This document shows positions 16,291-20,139 of a DNA stretch of 64,000 bases, in pieces. This DNA comes from Chrysophaeum taylorii (taxonomy: Eukaryota > Sar > Pelagophyceae > Pelagomonadales > Pelagomonadaceae). The stretch lies in the NCBI GenBank assembly GCA_029834535.1, contig JAQMWT010000387.1:59918-123917 (forward strand), written 5' to 3'. The notes beneath the pieces were generated by a model. That model saw nothing but the letters and a program-made list of their open reading frames with translations. It did not search any database and was not told the DNA's origin. The number at the start of each line of letters is the position of its first letter. Positions within the stretch are counted from its first letter, which is position 1. The position numbers and the translations under genes were made by a program.

Positions 16291-16544
16291 GCGTGTTCGA
16301 CGTCAGCATCGACATCGCAATCGGCTCGTCTCGTGCTCCTTATTATATGTATGTTCCGCCTTTTGTTGCGAGCGTGCCGACGAAGGGGCTGATGAACAAC
16401 TCTCTGGTGAAGAAGTGAAGTGAAGACATCTTAGTTTCAACTCAACGAACCTCCTCCTCGAGAAGCGAGCTTCGTGAATTAATTCCCCACGCTGGGAATT
16501 ATACTCCATCTTCTACAGCACAACAAGCCGCCGCCGAAAGAAAA

Positions 16545-19500
16545 TCAGCGGGGGCGGCGGAGGAGGGGTCCTTTCTGGAGGATAAAGGGCGCGTCGTCTG
16601 CGTACTTGGGAGCGAGGGCGCCGATGCAGAGAACGTCGGGCTCGCCGGCGTCCTGGAGGGCGCGGGTGAGGTCGTCGACGTCGGAGGCATCGACGACAAA
16701 GACGAGGCCGATACCGCAGTTGAAGGTGCGGAGCATCTCGTCGTCGGGGAGGTCGCAGAGTTGGGCGAGCCAGTCGAAGAGCGGGGGGAGAGGGGAAATG
16801 GCGGTGGCGTCGATTTTGGCGGCGAGGTCGGGGGGGAGGACGCGGGGGAGGTTGTCGAGGAGGCCGCCGCCGGTGACGTGGGCAACGGCCTTGAGGGTTG
16901 CCGCCGCGCGCGCCGCGGCAATTTGTTTCGCGTAGAGTCGCGTCGGAGCGAGGAGGATGTCGGCGAGGGAATCGGCCGAGTCGTGGGGGAAGAAGGCGCG
17001 GACGGGCGAGTTGAGCGCGCAAGTCGCGCCACCGCTGAGGCGTTTTGCGAGGGCGGCGCGGACGAGGGAAAAGCCGTTGGCGTGGATACCGCTCGAGCGG
17101 AGGGCGAGGAGGGCGTCGCCGGCGCGCAGGTCGCGCGTCTTGGGGAGGAGATCTTCGCGCCTGACGGCGCCTACCGCGAAGCCGGCGACGTCGAAGTCGC
17201 CCGGCGAGTAGAGACCTGGCATTTCGGCCGTTTCGCCGCCGACGAGGGCGCAGCCCGAGAGAGAGCAGCCCATCGCGACGCCCTCGACGAAAGCGGCGCA
17301 GCGGTCGACGTCGAGCTTCGAGGTCGCGTAGTAGTCGAGGAAGAAGAGCGGCGTCGCGCCGGTGGTCGCGACGTCGTTCACGCACATCGCGACGAGGTCG
17401 ACGCCGAGGACGCCGTCGTGGGAGCGGCCCGTCGCTTCGAAAGCCTCGGCCGCGAGCCGGAGCTTGGTGCCGACTCCGTCGGTACCCGAGACGAGGAGGA
17501 CGTCGTCTCGGGGGGCGTCGCTCGTCGGCGCGAAGCCGGCAGCCCTGAGGTCGAAAACGGCGCCAAATCCTCCGATTCCCGCGGCGTCGACGCCCGGGAT
17601 CGCCGTGCTTCGCGCGAGGGGCTTGAGCCGCTCCACGAGCGAATTCCCGGCGTCGACGTCGACCCCCGCCGCCCGGTACGTCAGCGGGGTCGTCGTCGTC
17701 TTCTCGGCCTTGGGGGGCGGGAACGCGTAGTCGCGAGGCGCGAACCGCCTGAGAAGAAGAAGAAGAATATGATGAGAGTTGTGACCTTGCGCCTCACTCT
17801 CCGACGTCGCCAGCGGCGAAGCGACGCGCGGCGTCGACGAGGGCCTGGCGTAGAGTCAAAGAGAAAGAAACCAAAAACGACTCGCGGGACCCTCGAGGGG
17901 CTGCACGAGTGCCTTGAGGCTCTCGGGGGTGGCGTCCGGCGGGACCGGCACGACGCGTTGCGAAACGACAGCGCCGCCGTCGACGTCGTCGGTGACGAGG
18001 TGGACGGTACAGCCCGACTCGGGTCGGCCGGCCTCGAGCACGGCCGCGTGGACCTCGAGGTCCATGCCGCCAGCGCCGCACTCTGGCAAGAGGCTCGGGT
18101 GGACGTTGAGGCAGCGGCCGCGCCAGGCCTGCACAAAGCCCGGGGAAAGGATGCGCATCCAGCCGATGAGGAGCACGCAGTCGACGTCGGCGGCGACGAG
18201 CCGAGCGGAAAGGTCGGCGTCGTAGTCGTCGCGACTCCTCTTCGCCGCGGGAACGTGATCGACGACTGGCACGCCGGCCGCGCGCGCCCGGTCGAGGATT
18301 TGTGCGTTGATTTTGTTCGAGAGGACGCAGACGACAATGCCCGGGAGGGCGTCGAGGATTGGCTGGAGGCTCGTGCCGCGCGTCGAGCCGAGGACGCCTA
18401 TCCTGAGCCGAGCGTCGAGGCAACGGCGACCGACGTCGCCGCGGTAGCGTGCGCCCTCGAACCGCACGCGGGCGGCGGCAGCGTAGGCTCCCGCGATGGC
18501 GCCTTTGAGCTCGGAAGAAACGGCCGTCGCCGCGAGGACGCGGCCGCCCGAGGTCACGAGGACGCCGTCGTCCGTTCTTTTCGTCCCGGCGTGGTACAGC
18601 GAGACTCCCGGGAGGTTTTTCGCGACTTCTTCGAGGCCGGTGATTCGTCGGCCCGTGGCGTAGGCCCCGGGGTAGCCCGCCGCCGCGACAACCACCGTCG
18701 CGGCCGCCGCGCGGCGCCACGCGACATCGACCGAGGCGAGGCGTCCCTCGGCGCAGGCGAGCGCGACCTCGAAGCAGTCGGACGCGAGGAGCGGCAGCAA
18801 GACCTGAGCCTCGGGGTCGCCGAACCTCGCGTTGAACTCGAGGAGGCAGGGGCCGCGGGGGTCGAGCATGAACCCGCCGTACAAGCACCCGACAAAGGGT
18901 CGGCCCTCGCGGCGTAGCCCCTCGACGGCCGCACGCATCGCGTCGCGCGCCTCGGCGAGATACGCCGCCGATATCTGCGGCGTCGGCGCGTACGCGCCCA
19001 TGCCTCCCGTGTTGGGGCCGCGGTCCCCGTCGAAGGCGCGCTTGTGGTCTTGCGCGGGCGGCATGCACTCGCAGGTCTCGCCGTCGCACCACGCGAGCAG
19101 CGAGACCTCGGGACCCTCGAGGCGTTCCTCGACGACGATCTCGTCGTGCTTGGCCGACAGTTCCTGGACGGCCGCGATCGCCGCCGCCTCGTTTTCAGGC
19201 ACGATGACGCCCTTCCCGGCGGCGAGGCCCGAGGCCTTGACAACCACGTCGAAGCTCGCAGCCCGCACCCACGCGATGGCGCCGTCGGGGTCCCGGACGA
19301 ACGTCTCGAACCGCGCCGTCCGCAGCCCGTGCCTAGACATGAACCGCTTGGCCCACGCCTTGGACGCCTCGATCTCGGCCGCAGCCCGACTCGGGCCGAA
19401 GCACGGGACGCCGGCCTCGCGGAGCGAATCGGCGGCCCCCGCCACTAGCGCCGCCTCGGGACCGATCACGGCGAGACCGACCCCCTGCGCCCGAGCCCAC

Positions 19501-19667
19501 GCCCCGAGCTCTGCGTACGGTGGCGCCGCGACGTTCCGCACCTTGCCACCCGCCGTGCCGCCGTTTCCCGGCGCGACCAACACCGCGCCCACGCGCTCCG
19601 AGGCCGCGAGCGCCGCCGCGATCGCGTGTTCGCGCCCGCCGCTTCCGACGACAAGCACCTTGAACAT
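16545..19667 (-). CDS. GART: Trifunctional purine synthesis enzyme, GARS-GART-AIRS order
   Basis: Catalyses three steps of IMP synthesis in the cytosol: GAR synthetase (PurD), GAR formyltransferase (PurN) and AIR synthetase (PurM). Exons are 19667-17907, 17844-17798 and 17748-16545, with introns of 62 and 49 nt. They sum to 1004 codons, giving 1003 residues. PurD spans about 1-425: V-V-G-S-G-G-R-E-H-A, an ATP-grasp core with G-P-N-T-G-G-M-G and E-F-N-A-R-F-G-D-P-E. PurN spans about 430-600: G-S-T-R-G-T-S-L-Q, L-N-V-H-P-S-L-L-P, and H-L-V-T-D-D-V-D-G-G with the catalytic Asp. PurM fills the rest: S-G-T-D-G-V-G-T-K-L and G-G-E-T-A-E-M-P-G. Animal GART has GARS-AIRS-GART, so here the last two are swapped. 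The donor of intron 1 (GTGCAG) is the least certain; it leaves the PurN end some 14 residues short. Confidence 0.92.
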
Positions 19668-19776: not shown

Positions 19777-20139
19777 ATGATGGATCCCCGCGAGGACGCC
19801 GAGAGGTACTTGAACGAGCACAAGGTGAAGAAGCTGTTCAAGGAGCTCGGGACGCGTCTCCTCTACGAGCGGCCGGCGGATCCGAACGCATTTTTGATAA
19901 AGGTGTTGCAGGAGATGCGCGACCACAAGAGGCGCGAGAGATTCTTCTCCGAGGCGGACGTGCGCGCGTGCTTCGGGGCCTACGACGTCACCAACACCGG
20001 CAAGATCAGCGCGGACCAGTACCTCAACGCCCTCTCGAGCATGGGCGTCGAGACACCGACCCCGCTTTCCGAGCCCACCGTCGACCGCGAGACCTTTGTT
20101 TCCAACGTCCTCGCGGAGCTCGACCGCGACGCCCAATAA
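19777..20139 (+). CDS. EFCAB10-like protein: RIIa-type docking domain plus EF-hand
   Basis: A 120-residue protein. Residues 1-50 (A-E-R-Y-L-N-E-H-K-V…L-L-Y-E-R-P-A-D-P-N-A-F-L) match the short dimerisation/docking fold of RIIa/Dpy-30 type, which in this family has the R-P-x-x-P-x-x-F-L end. Residues 70-95 hold one EF-hand-like loop (Y-D-V-T-N-T-G-K-I-S-A-D-Q-Y). That domain pair is the layout of EFCAB10, linked to cilia and flagella (family knowledge). The EF loop starts with D and has T-G-K-I, so Ca2+ binding may be weak. It shares a 109-bp promoter with the purine enzyme, probably without functional meaning. Confidence 0.75.
   Translation: MMDPREDAERYLNEHKVKKLFKELGTRLLYERPADPNAFLIKVLQEMRDHKRRERFFSEADVRACFGAYDVTNTGKISADQYLNALSSMGVETPTPLSEPTVDRETFVSNVLAELDRDAQ

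Follow-up and report, generated by a model that had tools for sequence, protein, structure and literature searches.

The window, a stretch of 64,000 nucleotides from Chrysophaeum taylorii, carries on its minus strand (19667-16545) a gene that opens with an ATG at 19667 and closes with a stop codon ending at 16545. Judged from reading frame, splice signals and homology, its three exons would be joined into a single chain of 1010 residues. The sequence-only reading had given 16545..19667 for this gene, which is its exact span, and had placed the formyltransferase (PurN) ahead of AIR synthetase (PurM). That order holds: the NCBIfam domains lie on the 1010-residue chain in the order GARS-GART-AIRS, PurD (TIGR00877) at residues 3-417 with 461 bits (cut-off 288), PurN at residues 422-605 with 139.6 bits, slightly below the curated cut-off of 150.1, and PurM (TIGR00878) at residues 632-979 with 332.7 bits (cut-off 236.35). 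Residues N521, H523 and D563 of the GART domain align with N106, H108 and D144 of E. coli PurN, which we take to be its catalytic residues, and the chain as a whole is predicted to be trifunctional. The parts of the gene are listed in Table 1, together with the bacterial fusions discussed below.

Table 1. Parts of the fusion gene and its upstream gap (positions in the window), and bacterial loci with fused purine enzymes
Feature	Position	Strand	Description
Exon 1	17886..19667	-	Carries the start codon and encodes GARS and most of GART; stop-free over 594 codons
Intron 1	17845..17885	-	41 nt, GC-AG type (GCGAGT...CCAG), phase 0; predicted
Exon 2	17798..17844	-	47 nt; end part of the last GART helix (ALVDAARRFAAGDVG)
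Intron 2	17749..17797	-	49 nt, GT-AG (GTGAGG...TTCTCAG), phase 2, at the GART/AIRS boundary; predicted
Exon 3	16545..17748	-	Linker (residues 611-631), AIRS and stop codon
GARS (PurD)	18417..19667	-	Residues 1-417; Pfam GARS_N, GARS_A, GARS_C
GART (PurN), exon 1 part	17886..18404	-	Residues 422-594
AIRS (PurM)	16641..17684	-	Residues 632-979
Gap between divergent start codons	19668..19776	.	109 bases
PurD-PurN fusions	L153, L165, L130, L220, L196, L226		Spirochaetota and Magasanikbacteria
PurF-PurD-PurN fusion	L193 2991-5912	-	One 973-aa frame; Magasanikbacteria contig, truncated 5' where the contig stops
PurF-PurD fusion	L176 754-3564		937 aa; another Magasanikbacteria genome, PurN in a separate frame

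Upstream, and divergent from the fusion gene, is a small EF-hand gene resembling EFCAB10 (19777-20139, plus strand), whose Pfam score of 30.8 is just below the cut-off of 32.5; the gap between the two start codons could possibly serve both genes as a shared promoter. An antisense open frame of 832 codons (16419-18917, plus strand) lies over the fusion gene, as is expectable in GC-rich coding DNA, and Rfam gave no match in the window at gathering thresholds.

The GARS and GART domains share a single open exon, and the passage from GART to AIRS runs through two short predicted introns. If the first is retained the frame stops at 17856, and with intron 2 held fixed several alternative first introns keep the frame open. 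The alternatives were scored with a model of 52 bacterial and archaeal PurN rows from which the window sequence had been left out. A GT donor at 17906 yields 1003 residues and removes VQPLEGP, seven conserved residues, from a conserved helix, whereas a GC donor at 17885 yields 1010 residues and a last PurN helix that aligns without gaps to chain 3auf, as well as to the bacterial and archaeal PurN rows that cover this helix. The GC-AG chain scores 206.4 bits against 189.1 for the GT-donor model, with three other splice models at 197.0-197.4. The earlier joining of exons by phase was thus right in producing one chain, with intron 2 in frame, and misplaced the first donor (at 17906 rather than 17885), so that its 1003 residues become 1010. 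Intron 1 is non-canonical, with a donor, GCGAGT, that differs from GTGAGT by one base and could be a weak splice site. Intron 2, in phase 2 where GART meets AIRS, is compatible with a joint at that place, and is no proof of one.

A separate start codon for the PurM part had been named by the sequence-only reading as something that would speak against a single chain. No ATG is found ahead of the AIRS core in the PurM frame: the first methionine is residue 157 of 436 and lies within the conserved core, so that AIRS has no nearby ATG start of its own.

An exon-by-exon search of the 70.8-Mb assembly (697 contigs), in which only the best candidates were scored and split genes may have escaped notice, detected no further GARS, GART or AIRS. 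GARS_A has one strong match, in the fusion gene, and two weak ones (35.4 and 29.3 bits). The four AIRS_C matches fall in the fusion gene (one), a PurL frame (two) and a SelD fusion (one), and the four formyltransferase matches are the fusion gene, two PurU-like proteins, one of them scoring under the curated cut-offs, and Fmt. PurL is a separate protein in this genome. Two further fusions or possible fusions were seen in passing: SelD is joined to an N-terminal oxidoreductase-like domain (L010 1456-3516, minus strand), and a lone OMP decarboxylase match (G000 C76 62312-62974, minus strand) lies in a 545-aa frame, where a fusion with OPRT would fit.

The three domains differ in their relationships. 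In the trees that follow, eukaryotes are represented by human and one fungal sequence only (chains 7lvo and 7lvp being, presumably, fungal in origin), the human GART row and the human and fungal AIRS rows are fragments, and the groups submitted to AU tests were picked after the first trees had been seen. The first PurD, PurM and PurN trees omitted short and duplicate rows, and that for PurM kept every fifth viral row.

For GARS, a quick tree paired the window with human GARS at 89 and placed the fungal GARS elsewhere; a careful tree of 48 rows, made with six long or second-copy rows and a Thermus row omitted and with 12 of 25 Pseudomonadota frames sampled, put the window with human and fungal GARS at 98/88, both trees carrying long-branch warnings. 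Grouping of the window GARS with bacterial fused PurD is rejected (AU p 2.9e-7). Over seven segments of the domain, identity to human GARS and to the mean of six fused PurDs is 45/27, 52/42, 49/29, 60/52, 53/45, 38/23 and 46/30 percent; human and fungal GARS are closer than the six-PurD mean in all seven, and the best single ordinary bacterial PurD equals or beats human GARS in six. This segment comparison was also used to look for a recombination break within GARS, and none was found.

The AIRS domain has a match in 77 of 80 Pseudomonadota genomes and is 48-59 percent identical to the best 30 of these matches. A tree of 47 of 73 rows (16 viral and 10 named rows omitted) places window, human and fungal AIRS together in a 19-row, mostly Pseudomonadota set at 100/99; the AU test does not reject monophyly of the three eukaryotic rows (p 0.154), and the nearest AIRS rows by path are bacterial. 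The set may well be alphaproteobacterial, as would suit a gene of mitochondrial origin, Nitratireductor being the only one of its genomes named. The idea that AIRS was a separate bacterial transfer lost force because human and fungal AIRS share this set.

In the GART domain, HPSLLP is followed by the loop ECGAGGMDLEVH, the mark of what we call the AGGMD subclass. A plant-type GART had been our first guess from this loop, the plant-type loop being GGKGMYG, and was abandoned when a pattern scan and the trees put the domain in the AGGMD subclass. The scan, run with a degenerate loop motif over prokaryote contigs, returned 61 stretches, of which 49 passed a filter for the HPSLLP context; the remaining 12 comprise one more PurN (L133) and 11 stretches that belong to other genes or none. 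The sources of AGGMD-type PurN include Marinimicrobia, Woesearchaeota and other archaea, Magasanik- and Uhrbacteria, Spirochaetia and others. As the pattern was fitted to the window's own motif, the scan shows that the subclass exists and says nothing on its frequency. The window GART scores 206.4 bits on the 52-row model of this subclass and 154.0 on a 56-row model of short-loop PurN, and in the first PurN tree (118 rows) it is nested within the subclass.

In the careful PurN tree, which kept 68 of the 118 rows (viral rows dropped, leaving 94, and 26 more removed at random) and had the loop columns removed, the window joins the PurN halves of three spirochaete PurD-PurN fusions at 99/90; support is 83/55 for the next wider group, in which G005 and two more spirochaete fusions are added. 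The AU test rejects a grouping with human GART (p 0.000868) and does not reject a placement of the window GART entirely outside the AGGMD subclass (p 0.127). Two of the seven PurN rows from fusions carry AGAMD in place of AGGMD. The apparent link to spirochaetes hangs on the single 99/90 branch, with its long rows and unusual composition. A transfer of GART from bacteria to the eukaryote would agree with this placement, its direction and donor being read from a tree that holds at most two other eukaryotic species. Viruses do not offer a nearer source in our data: the 10 stretches that matched the GARS-GART exon pattern in viral contigs included no relatives, and neither the viral PurM (at least 80 loci) nor the viral PurN (38 loci) is nearest to the window domains in the trees.

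PurD-PurN chains occur in at least four of 296 Spirochaetota genomes, in frames of 639, 666, 676 and 681 aa; a truncated contig from Spirochaetia and a 633-aa frame from Magasanikbacteria add to these, and a frame of 577 aa in genome G116 is among the matches listed for the PurD-PurN search. The three-part Magasanikbacteria frame of Table 1 spans the first three steps of purine synthesis. Among 145 genomes drawn from the phylum of G003 (G003 included) ten have a match at E 1e-50, and of these ten only G003 has such a long frame, those of the others being 199-394 aa. Genomes searched without fetching their loci were judged by listed frame lengths alone, among the matches listed. PurN with PurM, or PurD with PurM, in one frame was found in none of the 289 fetched loci with a match outside the window, nor in ten more (L312-L321) that were read separately.

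The sequence-only reading had offered an independent fusion or an internal domain shuffle as explanations of the order, and a tree of each domain as a check on separate origins. Such trees do separate the domains: GARS goes with its human and fungal counterparts, GART with bacterial and archaeal PurN and not with human GART. These differing histories suggest that the fusion arose independently, with a GART of bacterial type as its central domain. We therefore favor, at a probability of roughly 0.72, a single 1010-residue trifunctional GARS-GART-AIRS enzyme, the sole detected source of these activities in the genome, which arose separately from the animal fusion and holds an AGGMD-type PurN between a GARS and an AIRS of eukaryotic type.

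Rearrangement of the domains within an animal-type GARS-AIRS-GART enzyme would account for GARS and AIRS being of the same kind as in the human and fungal enzymes, but it is disfavored, and we rate it very unlikely, since the GART stands apart from human GART in both tree and loop subclass. Hardly more probable is the transfer of a bacterial PurD-PurN fusion as a whole, with AIRS joined later; such fusions exist and supply the closest PurN in our data, but a common PurD clade is rejected, none of the six fused PurDs is closer than human GARS in any of the seven segments (with one tie, at 52 percent), and the bacterial fusions have at least 12 residues more between PurD and PurN than the window chain does. 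That the arrangement is an assembly chimera or bacterial contamination seems the remotest of these possibilities, and nothing in its favor came to light. PurD and PurN lie in one open exon, GC3 is alike across the GARS, GART and AIRS parts (0.862-0.880), introns are predicted, and the neighboring frames, with FYVE, RhoGEF-PDZ, kinase with EF-hands and Myb domains, are eukaryotic in kind; even GC3 and such neighbors both argue against contamination.

Somewhat more room, though still little, is left for two products: a 603-residue GARS-GART from transcripts that retain intron 1, and AIRS from a separate transcript. The stop met in the retained intron and the perhaps weak GC donor would allow it, and the short product would resemble the bacterial two-domain enzymes (stop-to-stop frames of 633-681 aa); against it are the missing ATG before residue 157 of the PurM frame, the good signals of intron 2, which links GART to AIRS in frame, and the loss of part of the last GART helix that retention would bring. 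A tentative variant, which we think possible but doubtful, combines these elements: a eukaryotic GARS-AIRS fusion would have taken into its linker a PurN from a spirochaete-like PurD-PurN enzyme, which would bring the domains into the sequence of the reactions, and intron 1 would then serve as a switch, with retention giving GARS-GART ending at 17856 and splicing giving the full enzyme.

Returning to the single trifunctional enzyme, the simplest account of its origin would be that a eukaryotic GARS-AIRS fusion took a bacterial-type PurN into its linker. GARS would make GAR, GART would formylate it with formyl-folate, and AIRS would close the ring after PurL had acted, so that the domains would follow one another as their reactions do (purine steps 2, 3 and 5). 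If this is true, a trifunctional purine enzyme has been reached by a second path, with another order and a bacterial-type middle domain, and the pair would be a natural experiment on whether domain order matters for channelling. Fusion order might then be a marker to map across protist lineages. Among bacteria, the analysis draws attention to enzymes in which steps 2 and 3 are linked, and to one Magasanikbacteria contig where the link takes in steps 1, 2 and 3.

The GARS-GART-AIRS order was not found in the literature on eukaryotic purine fusions within a search that left most subscription journals outside, and that literature uses the phrase GARS-AIRS-GART for the vertebrate enzyme; the same architecture may well be present in eukaryotic sequence databases. 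A search of titles and abstracts on bacterial purine fusions turned up no paper on a PurD-PurN fusion of this kind. Vertebrate trifunctional GART likewise has three activities in one chain (predicted here) and a related GARS domain, but its order is GARS-AIRS-GART and its GART is of another lineage; of the features of the animal type, the window chain thus shares the three domains in one chain and the GARS relationship, and neither the order nor the GART relationship. The fungal enzymes of the Ade5,7 type have GARS and AIRS in one chain with no GART between, and both domains are related to those of the window. The bacterial PurD-PurN fusions have the GARS-GART order seen here, the nearest PurN found and a shared AGGMD subclass (placement of the window GART outside it is not rejected, p 0.127), but their PurD is from another clade and their chain is without PurM. 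A parallel for reversal comes from pyrimidine synthesis, where PMC2705460 describes OMPDC-OPRT as against OPRT-OMPDC, in oomycetes and diatoms, as a reversed order reached by independent fusion; the pathway and enzymes differ from those of the window chain, and the reversal by independent fusion is the same.
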